Of a stretch of DNA of 64,000 nt, positions 29,797-38,777 are shown piece by piece. The DNA lies in assembly GCF_003385895.1 (NCBI RefSeq), contig NZ_QRDQ01000008.1, positions 802,354 through 866,353 on the forward strand, in the 5' to 3' direction. Position 1 is the first letter of the stretch, and each line of letters begins with the position of its first letter. This stretch comes from Flavobacterium cutihirudinis (GTDB lineage: Bacteria > Bacteroidota > Bacteroidia > Flavobacteriales > Flavobacteriaceae). The translations under genes were made by a program, and so were the position numbers. The notes beneath the pieces were generated by a model. The model searched no databases. It was not told the DNA's origin and saw only the letters and a list, made by a program, of their open reading frames with translations.

Positions 29797-31542
29797 ATGA
29801 GGCTAATCATCTCTTTTTTACTTTTTCTTGTTTTTGCTACTGGGTTTGCACAGAAAACTCAGATTAGCGAGCAGGAATACTTAGACCTGCAAGATAAAAT
29901 TCGGTTTAGCATGAATTCTAATGCCGATACAGGTTTGGCATATACGGTAAAATTGATGAAATCTACTGACGATAAGCATTTGGCATTTGCTTATAGTGCT
30001 GCTTCCTATTTATACCAAATTAAAGGAAATGTAGCTAAATCTGATGAAAATTATAAAGCTGCAATTTCTCATTTGGATAAAATGCCTGCATCTTCTGAAA
30101 AAACTAAACTTACCGGTTACGTCTTTAATTATAGAGGTTTAACAGAATGGAAAAGGGGTAATTTGGGAAAAGCGCTTGATAATTATCAAAAAGGAGTCAA
30201 ATTTTCGACAGAAGTCAATGATGTGATTCAAATGGTGAAATTCAAAAGTAATATTGCACTTATAAATGAAGAAATTGGAAATTACCAATTGGCAATCAGG
30301 AATTTGAGGCAAAATAACGATTTCATTAATAAAAATGAAAACGTATATTCCAAGGATCAGTTTCAAAACAGCAAGAGTAACATTAATATGGATTTGGGTA
30401 GTTCATATGAAGGGTATTATATGAAGAATCGCGACAAGATGCATTTATTGGATTCTGCAGAGTACTTTTATAAGAAGGCAGTTACTTATTCTGAAAATTT
30501 TGCAAGTAATAAAATTGCCGCCAAGATGAGTTTGGGTAATATCTATTTGGTAAAAAAAGATTTGGTAAATGCTGAAAAAACTTATTTTGACATTTTATTT
30601 CTATCGAAACAGAATAATTCTGAAGTCTTATTTCAAGCTGCTAATTACAATTTAGGTGACTTGTATTTTTGGAGTAAAAAATATGATAAAGCATTAATAT
30701 GTTTTAAGAAAGTAGATTCTATTTCTTTGAAAAATAAAACTTTAGACGCAAATTATTTAAAGTCGAATTATTTACAGGCCAAGATTTATAACATTATGAA
30801 TGAGCCTGAAAAGGCCTATATACATTCTAAAATTTATTTGGATACTTATGAAAAATCAGAAACCAAATTAAGAGAAGAAGCCCTGGAAGTAAATTATAAG
30901 CTTGGTGTTGAAGATCTTGGTACTGAAATGGAAAGTATTCAGGAAAAATATAGAAATGAAGTTTTATGGAATAAAGCACTAAAAGTATTCTATGTTCTCT
31001 TGGTTGTTGGAATTATATTTTCTCTTATAAAGAATATAAGAGATAAAAATAAGGCGCACAAAAAAATGAATGCTTTAATTGAAGAGTTTAAAGCGAATTT
31101 AGAGAAAAAAGAAAACCCAGTTGTAGTTGAAGCAGTTGAAACTGAAGATTTAGAAGAAGTACAGCTCAAAAAAGAAAATGCCAATTTGAGCATTGATGAA
31201 GCTAAAGAAAATAAAATTGTAGAAAAATTATTGGCGCTGGAAAACAAACTGGAATATTTAAATGCTGATTTTACGCTTCCTTATGTAGCTAAAAAGATTA
31301 AGACAAATACAACCTATTTATCTTATGTTGTAAATAAACGATTCGGAAAATCTTTTGGTGAATACTCGAATGAACTTAAGATTAATTATGTGATTAATGA
31401 AATGATCACCAATCATATGTATCGTAAATATTCTACTCAGGCAATTGCAGAAAGTGTAGGATTTAAAAACGCAGTTTCGTTTGCAAAATCATTTCGTAAA
31501 CGAACGGGAGTTTCGCCGGCGCAGTTTGCAAGCAATATTTAA
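29797..31542 (+). CDS. TPR membrane protein with AraC-type DNA-binding domain
   Basis: A 581-residue one-component-like regulator. A signal peptide (LIISFLLFLVFATGFAQ) leads a periplasmic TPR region (about 30-380), followed by one membrane helix (VFYVLLVVGIIFSLI, about 398-412), a Lys/Glu-rich linker and a C-terminal AraC helix-turn-helix (about 480-581, ending YSTQAIAESVGFKNAVSFAKSFRKRTGVSPAQF). This architecture is common in Flavobacteriaceae and couples an extracytoplasmic signal to transcription. It lies next to the peptide export locus, and may regulate it, but only position suggests this. Confidence 0.88.
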   Translation: MRLIISFLLFLVFATGFAQKTQISEQEYLDLQDKIRFSMNSNADTGLAYTVKLMKSTDDKHLAFAYSAASYLYQIKGNVAKSDENYKAAISHLDKMPASSEKTKLTGYVFNYRGLTEWKRGNLGKALDNYQKGVKFSTEVNDVIQMVKFKSNIALINEEIGNYQLAIRNLRQNNDFINKNENVYSKDQFQNSKSNINMDLGSSYEGYYMKNRDKMHLLDSAEYFYKKAVTYSENFASNKIAAKMSLGNIYLVKKDLVNAEKTYFDILFLSKQNNSEVLFQAANYNLGDLYFWSKKYDKALICFKKVDSISLKNKTLDANYLKSNYLQAKIYNIMNEPEKAYIHSKIYLDTYEKSETKLREEALEVNYKLGVEDLGTEMESIQEKYRNEVLWNKALKVFYVLLVVGIIFSLIKNIRDKNKAHKKMNALIEEFKANLEKKENPVVVEAVETEDLEEVQLKKENANLSIDEAKENKIVEKLLALENKLEYLNADFTLPYVAKKIKTNTTYLSYVVNKRFGKSFGEYSNELKINYVINEMITNHMYRKYSTQAIAESVGFKNAVSFAKSFRKRTGVSPAQFASNI

Positions 31543-31677: not shown

Positions 31678-31821
31678 TTATCCGTTCCCGTTATTGCCTC
31701 CCTTACTTGGGTCGTTTTTTGGGTCAATTGGAGTTTCATCTCCGCCACGAACAGCTTTTTGTTGTGTTTTTGTTAATACGTCTGTTGTAAAATCTTCGAA
31801 TTTCATTTTGTTATTTTTCAT
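31678..31821 (-). CDS. GG-leader small peptide, tandem copy A
   Basis: A 47-residue peptide with a leader containing FTTDVLTKTQQKAVRGG and a short Asp/Pro/Lys core ending GGNNGNG, without cysteine. The double-glycine end is the kind cut by C39 peptidases, and such an exporter is encoded 3.5 kb away. Copy B just upstream encodes the same protein except for residue 12 (Thr here, Ala there). The two genes differ at 13 bases by my count, only one of which changes the protein, strong evidence that both are translated and selected. An inner ATG at 31806 is an alternative start. Confidence 0.8.
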   Translation of the reverse strand: MKNNKMKFEDFTTDVLTKTQQKAVRGGDETPIDPKNDPSKGGNNGNG

Positions 31822-31851
31822 GATAAGTTGATTATAATGTGATTTTATATA

Positions 31852-31995
31852 TTATCCGTTTCCGTTGTTACCTCCTTTTGATGGATCATTCTTTGGATCA
31901 ATTGGAGTTTCATCTCCGCCACGAACAGCTTTTTGTTGCGTTTTTGTTAATACGTCTGTTGCAAAATCTTCGAATTTCATTTTGTTATTTTTCAT
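31852..31995 (-). CDS. GG-leader small peptide, tandem copy B
   Basis: A 47-residue near-identical partner of copy A (Ala12 instead of Thr12), 30 bases upstream on the same strand. Leader LTKTQQKAVRGG, core beginning DETPIDPKND. It may be cotranscribed with copy A and end at the 31610-31657 hairpin. Function unknown: a secreted peptide (bacteriocin-like or signal) is the working idea. The Cys-free core distinguishes it from the plus-strand peptides. Confidence 0.8.
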   Translation of the reverse strand: MKNNKMKFEDFATDVLTKTQQKAVRGGDETPIDPKNDPSKGGNNGNG

Positions 31996-32457
31996 GATGA
32001 ATTGATTATAATTTGATTTTTAAATTTTTTATTTAGTGCTTTTATTCTATTATTTAGTGTTTCAATTTCTTTTAATTTTGTACTTTTTTACGGGTTAAAA
32101 TTTTGAATCAAAAACTGCTTTTTATGAAAGATTTTTGTCTTTTTTCTGATGATTTTTAAGCCTTAAAATCTTCAGTTTTTAACCTTAAATCTTTCCTTTT
32201 TTATCTATCTGTATTACTGATATGTCAAAGCTAGAGAAAAAGCAAAACCCTTGGTCGACATTTGGGTTTTGACGGTTTTTGTATCGCTTTTTTGAGTGTA
32301 ATTATCTGATATTCAGTGTAGTTGTTGTGGTGTTTTGACAGGCATAATTTATAAATTGTATGTAGTATAATTGATAAAATGTGTATATACCCCCGTTTTT
32401 TTTAAATAAAATCACCAATCTTTGCAGTGTAATTAAGCACTAAACGATTCGAAAAAA
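31996..32457. other. noncoding spacer between divergent peptide and export genes
   Basis: 462 bases of very AT-rich sequence. A TAGCTTTG match to the -7 consensus on the minus strand (32226-32233) could serve the tandem peptide genes, though no TTG is at the right distance and the leader would be over 200 bases. On the plus strand a near-match (AATCTTTG, about 32416-32423) precedes the VKOR gene. No further peptide gene was found. Confidence 0.5.
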
Positions 32458-34017
32458 ATGTTGAAACTGGTTCAAAAATTTCTTCAGATAAACAAGTACT
32501 CGGAGATTAAAAATGAGTTCAAAGATTTGTTTCTTTCTCATCCAAATTATCCAAGCTTGTTTGCGATAACAGATTCGCTGGATTTGTTGTCGATAGAGAA
32601 TGCTGCCGTAAGAGTTTCGAAAGAACAGATCGTCGATTTGCCGGAAAACTTTTTGGCTTATTTCAAAGATGAACTTTCAGTCGTTGAAAAATTTAAAAAT
32701 TACGTTCGTATCACTACGGTAAAAAAAGGGATGCAAAAAATTCCTTATGAGAAATTCCTTTTGGACTGGAATGGTGTAATTGTTGCTATCGAGCCAAATA
32801 CGACCATCTCCAGAGAGAATTTAAAAATCGAATACAATTGGCTGAAATATTTTCTTCCTTTTGTTTTGCTAACAGGACTTTCATTTTTTTACAATCCGTA
32901 TAGTTTATTCAGTCTTATTTTCTTGATTACATCGACATTTGGTTTGGTTGTCAGTGTTTTGATCGTTCAGGAAAAGTTAGGTTTCAATAATAGTTTCATT
33001 TCAAAATTTTGTAATCTGAGTTCCAATTCATCTTGTAACTCAGTTATAAATTTTAATGAAGGAAATCAAAATTGGCTTTTCAATTTTTCAGATTTGCCAT
33101 TGTTGTTTTTTAGCTCGAGTTTAATCGCAATTCTTATACGCCCTTTAGAGTCATCAATTTTTATTGGATTTTTAAGTTTATTAGCAATCCCAATAATTGT
33201 ATCGTCAATTTGGATTCAGAAATTCGAGATTCAAAAATGGTGTACAATGTGTTTAGCGGTTTCATTTCTGATTTTTGTACAAAGTCTTATCTGGTTTGCA
33301 TCAGATTTGTTTACGCTCTCATTTAGCTTTGAAAATATTTTTCCTTTTCTATTCTCATTTATTGTTTTAATGCCAATTTGGTTAGTAATAAAAGGGCATT
33401 TGAAAAATATTTTGGAGAATGAAAATTCATTGAAAGACTTAAAAAAATTCAAAAGAAACTATTCGTTGTTGAACTTTCTTTCTAAAAAAGTTACTTATAC
33501 GCACGGTTTTGACGATTTAAGAGGATTGAGTTTTGGTAATCGTAATGCGGTTGTAAAATTGACAATAATTTTAAGTCCGAGTTGTGGACATTGTTATAAA
33601 ACATTTAAGGAAGCATTCGATTTGGTTTTAAAATTCCCGGATAAAATCTTTCTAAGTATTTTATTTAATGTAAATCCGGAAAATGCTGATAATCCATACA
33701 AAACTGTTGTCGAAAGACTTTTAACGATTAACAGATCAACACCGGGAAAAACGGTTGAAGCTATTTCAGATTGGTATATAAAAAGGATGAATCTTAAAAA
33801 GTGGCTTAAAAAATGGCATGTTGAAAATGTCAGTATGATGACCATTCAGGAAATAAACAAACAATATGAATGGTGCTCAAAAAACAATTTTAATTACACT
33901 CCCGTGAAAATTGTAAATGAGAAGTTGTTTCCAAGTGAATACGAATTAAACGAATTGAAGTGTTTTCTGAATGATTTTACTGAAGAGAAAGAAACAGTTC
34001 TTGAAAAAATAGCCTAA
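32458..34017 (+). CDS. VKOR-thioredoxin membrane protein with degenerate C39-like domain
   Basis: A 519-residue putative thiol oxidase. Residues 1-120 look like a C39-peptidase-like domain (FLSHPNYPSLFAITDSLDLL) without the catalytic Cys. Several membrane helices follow with the vitamin K epoxide reductase pattern: loop cysteines C185 and C194 (FCNLSSNSSC) and the redox pair WCTMC (C262, C265). A C-terminal thioredoxin/DsbA-like domain carries CGHC (C376, C379) after LTIILSPS. Such fusions introduce disulfides in the periplasm. It heads the plus-strand run of Cys-containing peptides and the exporter, so those peptides are the likely substrates. Confidence 0.85.
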   Translation: MLKLVQKFLQINKYSEIKNEFKDLFLSHPNYPSLFAITDSLDLLSIENAAVRVSKEQIVDLPENFLAYFKDELSVVEKFKNYVRITTVKKGMQKIPYEKFLLDWNGVIVAIEPNTTISRENLKIEYNWLKYFLPFVLLTGLSFFYNPYSLFSLIFLITSTFGLVVSVLIVQEKLGFNNSFISKFCNLSSNSSCNSVINFNEGNQNWLFNFSDLPLLFFSSSLIAILIRPLESSIFIGFLSLLAIPIIVSSIWIQKFEIQKWCTMCLAVSFLIFVQSLIWFASDLFTLSFSFENIFPFLFSFIVLMPIWLVIKGHLKNILENENSLKDLKKFKRNYSLLNFLSKKVTYTHGFDDLRGLSFGNRNAVVKLTIILSPSCGHCYKTFKEAFDLVLKFPDKIFLSILFNVNPENADNPYKTVVERLLTINRSTPGKTVEAISDWYIKRMNLKKWLKKWHVENVSMMTIQEINKQYEWCSKNNFNYTPVKIVNEKLFPSEYELNELKCFLNDFTEEKETVLEKIA

Positions 34018-34023
34018 AGATAA

Positions 34024-34075
34024 ATATCGTTTCGGCAAAGACAGAAAGCTTCAAGTGTCTTAAAAATAATTGAAG
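34024..34075 (+). ncRNA. putative cis-regulatory pseudoknot, copy 1
   Basis: Upstream of the peptide gene at 34098. Stem 1 is AAGACA (34038-34043) with TGTCTT (34056-34061); the loop contains CTTCAA (34049-34054), which is complementary to TTGAAG (34070-34075), an H-type pseudoknot topology with an 8-base connecting loop. An ATATC element precedes it. The related leader at 34852-34898 keeps the order and the pairing with a compensatory change. Confidence 0.55.
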
Positions 34076-34097
34076 TATTGATTTTAATAAATATGTT

Positions 34098-34265
34098 ATG
34101 TTAAAAAGAATTTTAAACCTGGAAGGAGCTGAAAAGCTGACAACAAGCGAGCAAAAATCAATTTTTGGAGAAGTTCCTTGTGATAGCACTGACACAAATG
34201 CACCCGTTAAAGCAGGAGAACATTATGCAGTGGCTGATGGTGATAGACAATGTACAAATAAGTAA
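34098..34265 (+). CDS. leader peptide 1, two cysteines
   Basis: A 55-residue peptide, too short for common gene callers. Its leader LNLEGAEKLTTSEQKSIFG is homologous to those at 34370 and 34937, but the cleavage position reads IFGE instead of GG. The core holds two cysteines (Cys28 and Cys52), enough for one disulfide. The ATG at 34098 is used because the one at 34093 meets a stop after two codons. It follows the VKOR-thioredoxin gene by 80 bases. Function unknown; bacteriocin-like or signalling peptide. Confidence 0.72.
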   Translation: MLKRILNLEGAEKLTTSEQKSIFGEVPCDSTDTNAPVKAGEHYAVADGDRQCTNK

Positions 34266-34369
34266 AATTTGAAAATATATTTTACTGATACGTTCTAAAT
34301 TTTAAGTCTGGTTTTATACCTAAATGATTATAAAAAAAGCTGATTGTTAACCCAAAATAGTGAAAAGCG

Positions 34370-34561
34370 ATGATAAAACAATTACTTAATTTAAGCGGGT
34401 CTCAGAGAATCAGTAAGACTGAGCAAAAGAACATAGGAGGAGGAATTCCTGAATGTTGGATTTATGCCATAGAAGCCGGATGTATTTTGATACCCAATGG
34501 TGGTGTTTGTCCGATAAATACAGAAGCAGGCATTTGCGATTCAGATCGTCTTTGCTGTTAA
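34370..34561 (+). CDS. GG-leader peptide 2, six cysteines
   Basis: A 63-residue peptide. Leader LLNLSGSQRISKTEQKNIGGG, with glycines at the expected C39 cleavage site, then a core of about 40 residues beginning IPECWIYAIEAGC with six cysteines and ending DSDRLCC. Six cysteines allow three disulfides, suggesting a compact, knotted peptide. No pseudoknot leader like those of peptides 1 and 3 is present before it. A terminator lies 226 bases downstream. Confidence 0.82.
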   Translation: MIKQLLNLSGSQRISKTEQKNIGGGIPECWIYAIEAGCILIPNGGVCPINTEAGICDSDRLCC

Positions 34562-34786
34562 TTTTAAAATTAAAAGATAGATATACAATATAAAGCCTTT
34601 TTAAAATTTAGTCATGTTTTTTTTAAAGTATAGGCGCTCGATCGTGGAACATTGAGCAAATATCCCAACATTGATGATTGGTGTCGGGATTCTCAGGATA
34701 ACTGGTCACTTGGATTGATTTTATTTGGTTAGGGTCAAACAAGTGCCACCTCCTAGAGAAAAAAGTATATTATCGAAAATAGGAAT

Positions 34787-34815
34787 AGAGAGGAATTAGT
34801 TCTCTCTTTTTTTTC
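34787..34815 (+). terminator. terminator between peptides 2 and 3
   Basis: AGAGAG pairs with CTCTCT across a 9-base loop, followed by a long T run. It suggests that peptide 3 has its own promoter or is reached only by read-through. Confidence 0.75.
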
Positions 34816-34851
34816 TCCAAAATCAAAATAGTAATAAAATTACTACGAAGA

Positions 34852-34898
34852 ATATCTCCCCGAAAAGACAGGGCTTCAGCTGTCATTAATCACTGAAG
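34852..34898 (+). ncRNA. putative cis-regulatory pseudoknot, copy 2
   Basis: Upstream of the peptide gene at 34937. Stem 1 is GACAG (34867-34871) with CTGTC (34880-34884). The enclosed CTTCAG (34874-34879) is complementary to CTGAAG (34893-34898), with an 8-base connecting loop as in copy 1. An ATATC element lies 8 bases before it (9 in copy 1). Confidence 0.55.
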
Positions 34899-34936
34899 TA
34901 GAGCAAATCAAAAAACAATTAATAAAAACCTACATT

Positions 34937-35122
34937 ATGAAAAAATTAAAAAATCTTGAAGGAGTTGAAATTTTAACTGTCGAAGAAAAGAAAAGTATTA
35001 ACGGCGGCGGAATTGGCGCTTTCGCCTGCTATTGTCCGGATACCAATATCCTTGCTGCTATTATTATTGGAAGCGATGACTGCAGAGCTGCAATTGAAGA
35101 AAATTGTAATTTGCCACAATAA
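34937..35122 (+). CDS. GG-leader peptide 3, four cysteines
   Basis: A 61-residue peptide with leader LKNLEGVEILTVEEKKSINGGG and a core of about 36 residues starting IGAFACYCPDT, containing four cysteines (ACYC, DDC, ENC). The leader is homologous to those of peptides 1 and 2. It has its own structured 5' leader and a terminator directly behind it (35144-35176), so it may be transcribed alone. Probably processed and exported by the C39 ABC transporter encoded next. Confidence 0.82.
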   Translation: MKKLKNLEGVEILTVEEKKSINGGGIGAFACYCPDTNILAAIIIGSDDCRAAIEENCNLPQ

Positions 35123-35143
35123 ACTTTTACATATTTATTTTAC

Positions 35144-35176
35144 AAAGCTTTGTTGTTTCAGCAAAGCTTTTTTGTT
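35144..35176 (+). terminator. terminator after peptide 3
   Basis: AAAGCTTTG pairs with CAAAGCTTT, followed by a T run. Confidence 0.8.
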
Positions 35177-35285
35177 TTTAATAAAAATATTTAGAACCAA
35201 AAATTAAAAATTCAGTCTCTTTGAATTAATGGTTCATTTTTAAGAATTTTTGTATAAATTGCTGTTGCTAAACCCAAATTAAGGA

Positions 35286-37478
35286 TTGAAAAAATTTACC
35301 AATTACAAACAGGCAGATTTTAAAGATTGTGGCCCCACATGTTTAAAAATTGTTGCAAAACATTACGGCAAAACAATCAACATACAGGAGTTGAGAGACA
35401 TAAGTGAAACAACTCGTGAAGGAAGCAATTTGCTTTTTTTAAGTGATGCCGCAGAAAAAATTGGTTTTAGAACATTAGGTGTAAAATTAAGTGCCGAAAG
35501 ACTCAACGAAGCGCCTCTTCCCTGTATTTTGCATTGGAATAAAAATCATTACGTCGTACTTTACAAAATCAAAAAAGGAATTTATTACATCTCTGATCCT
35601 GCTTTTGGTTTAATTGAATACAATAGAGAAGACTTTTTAAAATTCTGGATCGGAAACAATGCTGACGATCAAACAAAAGAAGGAGTTGCACTATTGATAG
35701 AGGCAACACCAAAGTTTTTTCAATCTGATTTTGATAAGGAAGATAATAAAGGTCTGGGTTTTGGGCTTTTGTTTCAGTATGTTTTTCGTTATAAATCATT
35801 TCTAATACAGTTGAGTATTGGCTTATTGGCCAGTAGTTTATTGCAGCTAATTTTTCCTTTCCTGACACAGAGTATTGTCGATGTCGGAATACAAAACCAG
35901 AATATTCATTTTATTTATTTAATTCTGTTTGCGCAGTTATTTCTATTTGCCGGAAAAACCGGTTTAGAACTTATAAGAAGCTGGATATTGTTGCATCTTT
36001 CTACCCGAATAAATATTGCATTAATTTCAGATTTCTTTATCAAATTAATGAATCTGCCTATTTCCTTTTTTGATGTCAGAATGACGGGAGATATTATGCA
36101 GCGCATCAATGATCATCGCAGAATTGAGCGAATCCTGACTACTTCATCTTTAAATGTGCTTTTTTCTGTAATTAATATGTTTGTGATGGGCGCGGTTTTG
36201 GCCTATTTCAATCTGCAGATATTCTTTGTTTTTTTTGTTGGAAGTCTGCTTTATTTTGGATGGATAACCTTGTTTTTAAAAAGAAGGGAAATCCTCGACT
36301 ATAAGCGATTTGCAGAAGTTTCTCAAGAGCAAAGTAAAGTTATGGAGCTCATTAATGGTATGCAGGAAATAAAGCTTCATAACGCCGAAAAACAAAAACG
36401 CTGGGGTTGGGAATATGTGCAGGCAAGACTTTTCAGAGTTTCAATAAAAGGACTGGTTTTAGAACAAACTCAAACCATTGGATCATCGGTAATTAATGAA
36501 TTAAAAAATATTTTCATCATATTCTTGTCTGCAAAATTGGTTATCGACGGTTCTATTACGCTGGGAATGATGCTCGCAATTAGTTCGATAGTGGGAAGTT
36601 TAAATGGCCCGATTACGCAGCTAATTGAATTTGTGAGAGAACTTCAGGATGCTAAAATTTCTTTGGCGAGATTGTCTGAAATTCACGAAAAGGAAGACGA
36701 AACGCAGCAGGAAATTCATCAGACAAATGATGTTCCTTATGATTCAGATATTGAAATAAAAAACCTTTCATATCGCTATTTAGGATCTGATATTCCGGTT
36801 TTAAGTGATTTAAGCCTGATTATTCCGGCAAACAAAGTTACCGCGATAGTTGGCGTTAGCGGAAGCGGAAAAACAACTTTAATGAAATTGCTTCTTAAGT
36901 TTTATGAACCTGAAAAAGGTGAAATCACTATTGGAAATGCCCAACTTTCAAATATTTCTCAGAAAGCCTGGCGTTCAAATATTGGAGCTGTAATGCAGGA
37001 AGGATTTGTATTTAGCGATACTATTGCAAATAATATTGCAATTGGCGTTGATAAAATTGACAAAGAAAGATTGGTTTATGCTGCGGATGTTGCCAATATA
37101 AAAGAATATGTAAGCGGTTTGCCTCTGGGTTATAATACTAAAATTGGAGCCGAAGGAGTGGGGATGAGTACCGGACAAAAGCAGCGATTACTGATTGCAA
37201 GAGCAGTTTATAAAAATCCTGAAGTATTGTTTTTTGATGAAGCAACTTCGGCATTGGATGCGAATAATGAAAAAGAAATTATGCAGAAACTGGATTTGTT
37301 TTTCAAAAACAAGACCGTGATCGTAATTGCGCATCGATTAAGTACAGTTATGAATGCAGATCAGATTGTGGTTTTGGATAAAGGGAAAATTATCGAAATT
37401 GGAAATCACGTAACACTGATTGAACAAAAAGGAAGTTATTTCGAACTCGTTAAAAATCAATTGCAACTAGGGAATTAA
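35286..37478 (+). CDS. peptidase C39 domain-containing ABC exporter
   Basis: Cleaves double-glycine leaders and exports the peptide across the inner membrane. The 730-residue protein starts at TTG 35286 and has an N-terminal C39 domain with catalytic Cys15 (ADFKDCGPTC), His88 (NKNHYVVLY) and Asp104 (ISDPAFG), then a six-helix membrane domain (about 165-440) and an ABC ATPase with Walker A GVSGSGKTT, signature MSTGQKQR and Walker B VLFFDEATSALD, His switch IAHRLST. All three activities look intact. The HlyD adaptor gene follows 3 bases later. The five leader peptides nearby are the obvious substrates. Confidence 0.95.
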   Translation: MKKFTNYKQADFKDCGPTCLKIVAKHYGKTINIQELRDISETTREGSNLLFLSDAAEKIGFRTLGVKLSAERLNEAPLPCILHWNKNHYVVLYKIKKGIYYISDPAFGLIEYNREDFLKFWIGNNADDQTKEGVALLIEATPKFFQSDFDKEDNKGLGFGLLFQYVFRYKSFLIQLSIGLLASSLLQLIFPFLTQSIVDVGIQNQNIHFIYLILFAQLFLFAGKTGLELIRSWILLHLSTRINIALISDFFIKLMNLPISFFDVRMTGDIMQRINDHRRIERILTTSSLNVLFSVINMFVMGAVLAYFNLQIFFVFFVGSLLYFGWITLFLKRREILDYKRFAEVSQEQSKVMELINGMQEIKLHNAEKQKRWGWEYVQARLFRVSIKGLVLEQTQTIGSSVINELKNIFIIFLSAKLVIDGSITLGMMLAISSIVGSLNGPITQLIEFVRELQDAKISLARLSEIHEKEDETQQEIHQTNDVPYDSDIEIKNLSYRYLGSDIPVLSDLSLIIPANKVTAIVGVSGSGKTTLMKLLLKFYEPEKGEITIGNAQLSNISQKAWRSNIGAVMQEGFVFSDTIANNIAIGVDKIDKERLVYAADVANIKEYVSGLPLGYNTKIGAEGVGMSTGQKQRLLIARAVYKNPEVLFFDEATSALDANNEKEIMQKLDLFFKNKTVIVIAHRLSTVMNADQIVVLDKGKIIEIGNHVTLIEQKGSYFELVKNQLQLGN

Positions 37479-37481
37479 ATC

Positions 37482-38777
37482 ATGGCTGAAGACAATACTA
37501 AATTTGAACTTAGAAGTGAAGAAGTTCAGGATATTCTAACTAAAGTGCCGCACTGGATGATCAGATGGGGGACTGTGTTAATATTTGTCATCATTCTGAT
37601 GTTGTTTTTTGTTTCCTGGTTTATAAAATATCCGGATGTTGTAAAAACTGAAATCCTTATTACAACCAATATTCCGCCGGAGAAAATTGTTGCCAAATCT
37701 TCTGGTCGTATTGAAACGATTTTGGTAGAAGATAAAGCAGTAATTGCAAAAAATAGTACATTGGCGATTATCGAAAATACAGCTAATTATAAAGATGTTT
37801 TTTTACTAAAGAAAATTGTAGACGCTTACAATATTGCTGATCCTAAAAGCGAGTTTCCGTTTGCACAGTTAAAAAATGCACAATTAGGCGAAATAGAAAG
37901 TGCGTATGCTGTTTTTCAAAAAGATTATCAGGCTCAAAAATTAAACGAAGATTTACATCCTTTTGCTGTCGAAAGCAGAGCGCAATATTCAGAGAAAATT
38001 CAAATTCAGGAACGATTAGACATTTTGCAACAACAAAAAACAATCAATGAAGGCGAGTTGGAACTTCAAAAAAACGAAATTGCCCGATTTGAAGTTTTAT
38101 TCAATAAAGGAATTATTTCTGCCCAGGAAATGGAGATTAAAAAACTGAATTTCCTTCAGGCGCAGAAGAATTACAGAAGCCTTTTGTCGTCGATTTCTCA
38201 ATTGAAATCCTCTTTGATTGACAATACAAAATCAAGTCAGAATTCGCAGATTAACAGTACTAAAGAAGAGGTTAATCTGGGAAGAAATATGGCACAATCT
38301 TTTTACCAGCTAAAAAAAGTAATTAAAGACTGGGAACTGGCCTATGCTTTAAAATCTTCTATAAGTGGCGTGGTTACTTTTTTGCAGGTTTGGACAGAGA
38401 ATCAGACCATAAATGTGGGCGATAATGTTTTTACCATTATTCCGGATGCAAAAAACGGTTTCATCGGAAAGGTAAAAGCACCGGCTTTAAATTCAGGAAA
38501 AATAAAAGTAGGACAGCGTGTTAATATTCGTCTCGCAAATTATCCCGACAGAGAGTTTGGAGTTCTGAAAGGTGAAATCAAAAATATTTCATTGGTGCCA
38601 GATAAAGATGGAAATCTTCTTATAGACGTTGCTTTGCCAAACGGATTAAAAACATCGTATAACAAACTGATTACTTTTCAGCAGGAAATGAAAGGAAGTG
38701 CCGAAATTGTTACTGAAGATCTACGTTTAATCGAAAGAATTTTATATCAGTTTAAAAGTATATTTGAACAAGTTTAA
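37482..38777 (+). CDS. HlyD family secretion adaptor
   Basis: A 431-residue periplasmic adaptor of a type I-like peptide exporter. One N-terminal membrane helix (about 26-48, WGTVLIFVIILMLFFVSWFI) is followed by a beta segment (IETILVEDKAVIAKNS), a long coiled coil (about 165-265) and a C-terminal HlyD beta domain (SGKIKVGQRVNIRLANYPDREFG). It lies 3 bases behind the C39 ABC gene and forms the transporter with it; the outer-membrane TolC partner is not encoded in this locus. Confidence 0.92.
   Translation: MAEDNTKFELRSEEVQDILTKVPHWMIRWGTVLIFVIILMLFFVSWFIKYPDVVKTEILITTNIPPEKIVAKSSGRIETILVEDKAVIAKNSTLAIIENTANYKDVFLLKKIVDAYNIADPKSEFPFAQLKNAQLGEIESAYAVFQKDYQAQKLNEDLHPFAVESRAQYSEKIQIQERLDILQQQKTINEGELELQKNEIARFEVLFNKGIISAQEMEIKKLNFLQAQKNYRSLLSSISQLKSSLIDNTKSSQNSQINSTKEEVNLGRNMAQSFYQLKKVIKDWELAYALKSSISGVVTFLQVWTENQTINVGDNVFTIIPDAKNGFIGKVKAPALNSGKIKVGQRVNIRLANYPDREFGVLKGEIKNISLVPDKDGNLLIDVALPNGLKTSYNKLITFQQEMKGSAEIVTEDLRLIERILYQFKSIFEQV

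Follow-up and report, generated by a model that had tools for sequence, protein, structure and literature searches.

Bacteroidetocins are class IIf bacteriocins of Bacteroidota that kill Bacteroidales, and deletion of their thiol oxidoreductase gene attenuates this activity (Coyne et al. 2019, PMC6671954). A gel shift backs the presence of disulfides in these peptides, and no obvious immunity gene is described for them there (PMC6671954). They are the closest known system to the locus considered here, which lies in a stretch of 64,000 nucleotides (the window) from Flavobacterium cutihirudinis (contig NZ_QRDQ01000008.1, positions 802,354 to 866,353) and comprises a gene for a fusion of a C39-like domain, a vitamin K epoxide reductase (VKOR) and a DsbA-like domain, small peptide genes with double-glycine (GG) leaders, a C39 peptidase-containing ABC exporter and a HlyD-family adaptor. 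This locus probably encodes a system dedicated to maturing and exporting disulfide-bonded peptides, in which oxidation precedes cleavage and export. The chances seem evenly balanced that the fusion is, more specifically, a natural inverted VKOR with a leader-binding C39-like domain, acting as a leader-guided disulfide synthetase that forms cytoplasmic disulfides on precursors before the exporter releases folded peptides. Disulfide formation would then be a leader-directed modification of the type found in ribosomally synthesised and post-translationally modified peptides, serving large conotoxin-like peptide repertoires across Bacteroidota.

Like the bacteroidetocin regions, also from Bacteroidota, the window holds in one region a C39 ABC exporter and small cysteine-containing peptides with GG leaders, together with a thiol oxidoreductase gene (PMC6671954). 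Bacteroidetocin regions encode a five-helix protein and an oxidoreductase as two genes, whereas the window has the single C39-like/VKOR/DsbA-like fusion and no separate genes of these two kinds. Bacteroidetocin leaders measure 15-16 amino acids, against a median of 23 amino acids here (474 peptides; 24-25 for p2 and p3, the second and third peptides behind the fusion gene), and the regions are described with one peptide gene each, whereas here a HlyD gene and up to 19 hypervariable peptides are present (PMC6671954). These distinctions are drawn from the published description. A literature search that covered neither bioRxiv preprints nor most subscription papers returned no description of this locus and no paper in which 'vitamin K epoxide reductase' occurs together with 'peptidase C39'. 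Conotoxin genes combine a conserved leader with a hypervariable, cysteine-rich core, form multigene families and use the animal secretory pathway; their likeness to the peptides of this locus is by analogy only.

Domain make-up and predicted orientation of the VKOR fusion

A first-pass annotation, made from the letters of this DNA alone, had recognised the gene set correctly, but its uniform leader pattern and its description of the fusion as a VKOR-thioredoxin protein needed correction. The protein does head the plus-strand run, with a pair of cysteine-free peptide genes ahead of it on the minus strand, and its VKOR part matches PF07884 at 39.9 bits (cut-off 27.5) with both Cys pairs present, as expected of the VKOR family. 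All four VKOR cysteines and the CxxC of the C-terminal domain are invariant in 27 of 27 aligned fusions. The supposed thioredoxin part is DsbA/ScsC/BdbD-like (VIA-align Z up to 17.8 for ScsC and 15.2 for BdbD), and two features had been overlooked: a degenerate C39-like domain in the first 116 residues, and a predicted cytoplasmic orientation.

Residues 1-116 align with the C39 domains of the exporters (hhalign 96.9%, E 1.5e-10) and with LahT150 in complex with its leader (6mpz; VIA-align Z 13.4, rmsd 2.9 over 115 residues), while the N-terminus falls below the Pfam C39 cut-off (17.2 vs 22 bits). A DCG-type motif is absent from the first 45 residues in 61 of 61 fusions, six of which have some cysteine there; in the hhalign alignment the matched part starts past the catalytic Cys, the His stands opposite a gap and the Asp opposite a Thr. 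A C39 fold without the catalytic triad is what defines a C39-like domain, and these alignments identify the N-terminus as catalytically dead and of a fold type known to bind GG leaders. The structure model of the fusion has a mean predicted local distance difference test (pLDDT) of 78.6 and a predicted template-modelling score (pTM) of 0.42. Inactive C39-like domains of HlyB-type exporters recruit substrate, and LahT150 grips leaders through positions -4, -7 and -12 (PMC6363468). The fusion thus resembles HlyB in having a degenerate C39 fold without the catalytic Cys, which in HlyB sits on an ABC transporter and here on a disulfide oxidase (PMC6363468). It likewise resembles the Synechococcus VKOR (PDB 3kp9/4nv6) in its two Cys pairs and thioredoxin-fold domain, but adds an N-terminal C39-like domain and a helix and has an inverted charge pattern.

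Ahead of the first Cys pair, 104 of 112 fusions have at least two hydrophobic stretches and the other eight have one, as do 11 of 11 references. Lysine and arginine residues of the loops are more numerous on the catalytic face than on the opposite face in 111 of the 112 fusions, with one tie. An additional set, which includes a truncated fusion, shows the same excess in 17 of 17 proteins. The pattern is reversed in all 12 reference VKORs, namely ten actinobacterial proteins from plasmid records, one VKOR-DsbA protein of Bacteroidota and the solved Synechococcus protein. The inverted loop charges, read by the positive-inside rule, and the extra N-terminal helix predict that the fusion exposes its C39-like and DsbA-like domains and its active-site cysteines to the cytoplasm. 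Two stand-alone VKORs (L187 and L188; 133 and 141 amino acids) also bear the inverted charge pattern.

Inverted VKOR and DsbB, for which Hatahet and Ruddock 2013 is cited, serve to make disulfides in the cytoplasm (PMC5471842). They are employed in E. coli for production; the inverted VKOR has its catalytic face in the cytosol, as proposed here, and is not known to carry a leader-binding domain.

Cysteine-rich GG peptides track VKOR

A scan of 149 family genomes recovered the fusion in 21, as 32 long matches and one 52-residue fragment, and 32 of the 35 places with a VKOR domain in these genomes are such fusions; no VKOR match was obtained in 125 of the 149. In the phylum sample it is present, mostly at full length, in 41 of 395 genomes, eight of which belong to one family outside the class of the window. 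Within the genus its occurrence is sporadic (14 genomes with, 10 listed without). The first-pass annotation had proposed looking for small leader open reading frames (ORFs) in homologous loci, and they recur as it expected: 30 of 31 family VKOR loci have a leader peptide scoring at least 6 bits with a hidden Markov model (HMM) of the leader, and 71 of 77 named loci have peptides of at least 8 bits, with the exporter in the fetched stretch at 22 of 31 and 48 of 77, respectively. The named loci derive from 232 relatives, of which 80 were kept (152 were not) and three were dropped as duplicates of family loci; their records include Tenacibaculum, Winogradskyella, Aquimarina, Lacinutrix, Polaribacter, Roseivirga and Labilibaculum.

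The leader HMM was built from 28 seed leaders chosen by eye from VKOR loci, two of them (p2 and p3) from the window. The five small genes that had been credited with a common LT..EQK..GG leader are all recovered, at 14.6-35.8 bits, and three of the five were not seeds; the pattern itself is not uniform, as GE replaces GG in p1 (34098; GD in the ORF at the same place in L173, from the same genus) and p2 (34370) reads IS..TEQK..GGG. At 8 bits or more, 76 ORFs were retrieved from a 51-locus set and 399 from the 77 named loci, with as many as 19 per locus, and none from the same DNA reversed in either case; chance ORFs were rejected as an explanation on this count. In 70 loci, a median of 124 bases separates the VKOR stop from the start of the first peptide, and of 396 peptides counted 393 share the strand of VKOR. 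In 457 HMM-selected leaders, those kept for ending in GG, GA or GS, the conserved positions are L-12 (95%), E-8 (68%) and I/V-4 (97%), positions also named for ComA and LahT150 (PMC6363468).

Cores vary far more than leaders: across 1900 pairs of paralogues within loci, leader identity is 70% and core identity 25%, compared with 23% for shuffled cores. What the cores share is an even number of cysteines, in 360 of the 399 ORFs of the named loci (36 odd, three none) and in 61 of 75 family-set peptides (12 odd, two none). After clustering of Cys-containing cores at 60% identity, 309 of 342 clusters are even, against a shuffled mean fraction of 0.499 (standard deviation 0.026); for 14 other residues the even fraction is 0.33-0.49. 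Together with the recurrence of the leader ORFs, this bias supports, at the level of sequence, the earlier suggestion of a disulfide-peptide pathway. In the window, however, the cysteine cores that had been noted are confined to three ORFs with 2, 6 and 4 Cys; the other two, on the opposite strand, have none to oxidise. The p2 orthologue in L173 is 67% identical and keeps all six core cysteines, with a ratio of nonsynonymous to synonymous substitution rates (dN/dS) of about 0.16 at a dS of 1.5.

Assignment to a known peptide family was rejected after 40 of the 474 peptides were scanned, with only scattered weak matches in NCBIfam and Pfam: NF047798 'bacteriocin-like protein' in two (best E 0.0014), and three Pfam families with one member each (best PF14406, E 0.00052). 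A profile of these 40 gave no PDB match at E 1 or better, and the YGNGVXC motif of class IIa bacteriocins is absent from the three Cys-containing cores of the window.

As the HMM was seeded from VKOR loci and so favours them, GG ORFs were recounted by motif alone. Among 53 exporter rows, 22 lie in VKOR loci and 20 serve as controls, with the same exporter (47-83% identical) and no VKOR nearby; 11 distant or fragmentary ones were left out (48% identity limit). At least three core cysteines occur in 54 of 57 GG ORFs of the VKOR-exporter loci against 3 of 20 in the controls, where the leader HMM found three ORFs of at least 6 bits, one with five Cys. The four Cys-rich exceptions (L067, L078 and L080 in the motif recount, L074 with the HMM) all belong to genomes with a VKOR fusion elsewhere. 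Cysteine-rich GG peptides therefore track VKOR rather than the exporter. One exporter locus without VKOR (L066:4425-5441) encodes three GG peptides that are related to one another, each with two Cys and a leader of a different type, and its exporter seems to serve other cargo.

Aureibacter, Emticicia and Parabacteroides have relatives on records classed as plasmids, although those of Parabacteroides, which carry housekeeping genes, may be mislabelled chromosome. Small ORFs directly after VKOR are annotated there as 'hypothetical', and a further small GG-leader ORF of Aureibacter as 'bacteriocin'. A plasmid-labelled record of Parabacteroides distasonis (L165:7920-15733) contains a VKOR fusion and a small 6-Cys ORF (7.6 bits), and a LanC-like gene and two glycosyltransferase-like genes precede its C39 exporter; this is possibly a doubly modified sub-type.

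Predicted site of oxidation and alternative explanations

From domain make-up, gene association, cysteine parity, leader conservation, core hypervariability and charge inversion, all read from sequence, we infer how the fusion is oriented, that it binds leaders and oxidises cores, and that the peptides are cleaved and active. Each precursor consists of a leader of the C39 type (L-12, E-8, I/V-4, double glycine) and a core that is hypervariable and usually has an even number of cysteines. By analogy with C39 and C39-like domains elsewhere, the dead C39-like domain of the fusion would bind the leader, and oxidation of the core would fall to the DsbA-like domain and VKOR, with quinone receiving the electrons. 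As all three parts of the fusion are predicted to be cytoplasmic, the disulfides would form on that side, before export. Cleavage behind GG by the C39 exporter would follow, and the exporter, HlyD and an outer-membrane channel whose gene lies elsewhere would together release the folded peptide. The mature product is most likely a bacteriocin-like antagonist, a function proposed because bacteroidetocins, the closest described system, kill Bacteroidales.

The same system could instead oxidise its peptides in the periplasm, during or after export, like ordinary DsbA/VKOR pairs, and the disulfides of bacteroidetocins are ascribed to the thiol oxidoreductase of their locus (PMC6671954). That would require either a periplasmic C39-like domain (six helices) or an extra helix that does not span the membrane, the domain serving only to dock the exporter or precursor. 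Bacterial VKORs of known structure do act outside the cytosol, which is reducing. However, the loop charges of nearly all fusions are opposite to those of every reference VKOR, and in most fusions a further hydrophobic stretch precedes the first Cys pair; moreover, leaders of C39 substrates are cleaved on the inner side, so that an external leader-binding domain would meet peptides whose leaders had been removed inside. Periplasmic oxidation thus appears rather unlikely. That the cysteines serve another modification, such as thioether bridges or metal or cofactor binding, with VKOR keeping or tuning their redox state, appears improbable: the LanC-like and glycosyltransferase-like genes of the Parabacteroides distasonis locus point that way, but an even Cys number is common to cores of very different sequence, as disulfides predict, and a lanthipeptide reading was rejected here since the LanC-type cyclase family PF05147 has 0 matches in this genome, in which radical-SAM and LanB genes were not searched for genome-wide. 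To that extent, the earlier view of oxidation as the only apparent modification holds. It is conceivable, given the absence of a DsbB match and the presence of only two VKORs in the genome, both of this fusion type, that the protein is a general disulfide oxidase that merely neighbours a peptide-export operon. We consider this very improbable, as most family VKOR loci have the exporter and nearly all have leader peptides beside the fusion, most family genomes have no VKOR match at all, the fusion is sporadic within the genus and bears a C39-like domain, and Cys-rich GG peptides are missing from most exporter loci that have no VKOR.

Several observations weigh against the proposed pathway. The positive-inside rule is a tendency, the inverted charge pattern is also found in two stand-alone VKORs (G284, G153b), the charge comparison left out six control VKORs without a loop Cys pair and includes a single reference from Bacteroidota, and the model places the domains weakly, as its pTM indicates. 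The exporter was not in the fetched stretch at 9 of 31 family VKOR loci and 29 of 77 named loci, some of which are ended by contig ends, and such peptides were not found at one family locus (L059) and six of the 77 named loci. Position -7 of the leader is Gln (88%) rather than the Leu of the published consensus (PMC6363468), and these frequencies derive from ORFs that the HMM had selected. The GE of p1 departs from the leader type, and the Cys-free pair bears a similar leader yet no cysteines. Expression, oxidation and export of the peptides are all predictions from DNA.

If leader-guided oxidation is correct, one enzyme would let a Gram-negative cell make many disulfide-rich peptides by recognising the leader and not the core. 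Such a machine, which would occur naturally, work in the cytoplasm and know its substrates by a defined tag, could help in the production of disulfide-rich peptides. It also offers a directly testable case in which a disulfide enzyme seems to have moved to the other side of the membrane. The 399 ORFs of the 77 loci would point to a large and so far unstudied repertoire of peptides that are probably antagonistic.

Locus layout and neighbouring elements

Table 1. Features of the locus, with positions in the window
Feature	Position	Strand	Details
C39-like/VKOR/DsbA-like fusion gene	32458..34017	+	519 aa; proposed leader-guided disulfide oxidase; Pfam VKOR
N-terminal degenerate C39-like domain, residues 1-116	32458..32805	+	no catalytic triad; hhalign, VIA-align
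VKOR domain, residues 154-275	32917..33282	+	Pfam PF07884
DsbA/ScsC-like domain with CGHC, residues 346-511	33493..33990	+	VIA-align
Leader peptide gene p1	34098..34265	+	55 aa; 2 core Cys; leader HMM 27.2 bits, not a seed
Leader peptide gene p2	34370..34561	+	63 aa; 6 core Cys; leader HMM 32.4 bits, seed
Leader peptide gene p3	34937..35122	+	61 aa; 4 core Cys; leader HMM 35.8 bits, seed
C39 peptidase-containing ABC exporter	35286..37478	+	730 aa; TTG start; Pfam C39 114.7 bits, ABC_membrane, ABC_tran
HlyD-family adaptor	37482..38777	+	431 aa; Pfam HlyD_3 54.7 bits
Cys-free GG-leader peptide gene, copy 1	31678..31821	-	leader HMM 14.6 bits
Cys-free GG-leader peptide gene, copy 2	31852..31995	-	leader HMM 15.2 bits

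The intact Cys15, His88 and Asp104 reported for the exporter in the first-pass annotation are invariant across 13 aligned exporter C39 domains, and the HlyD gene begins 3 bases past the exporter stop, as had been stated (Table 1). Between p2 and p3, a 39-amino-acid ORF with two Cys and no leader (34623-34742, minus strand) is either a chance ORF or a decayed peptide gene. An S41 gene downstream was rejected as a part of the system, with a homologue in only 1 of 134 other loci and in none of 22 loci compared.

The Cys-free pair (31678-31995, minus strand) consists of near-identical tandem copies, differing at 13 of 141 bases and one residue, with a leader resembling the others and the core DETPIDPKNDPSKGGNNGNG. 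One copy was scanned against the radical-SAM peptide families TIGR04149 and PF14406 and scored 15.5 and 15.6 bits, below the cut-offs of 25. Three tandem homologues stand at the same place in L173, the one other locus with Cys-free peptides, which also has, at the same place, a 71% identical homologue of the TPR-AraC regulator gene found upstream in the window (29797-31542, plus strand). That gene was left out of the system, as only 11 of 134 loci have homologues, whose location varies. Loci L169-L172, of the same genus, have neither the TPR-AraC gene nor Cys-free peptides near their VKOR genes. The Cys-free peptides may be signals or another cargo, and the TPR-AraC protein is possibly a regulator for which they act as a peptide signal of its own.

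The second fusion gene of this genome lies on contig C2, in a second VKOR-exporter-HlyD locus (L035:6372-14614). Upstream of it lie two GG peptides whose cores have 6 and 5 Cys, with DUF6625 and DUF6734 genes in between, whose products we take to be glycosyltransferase-like. An orphan GG-leader peptide with a 4-Cys core (G000:C5:50313-50492; L202:8314-8493, plus strand) was found on a contig without either VKOR locus, adjoining two OmpH-family genes and an Omp85/POTRA (BamA-like) gene; BamA is the target of bacteroidetocins (PMC8546649).

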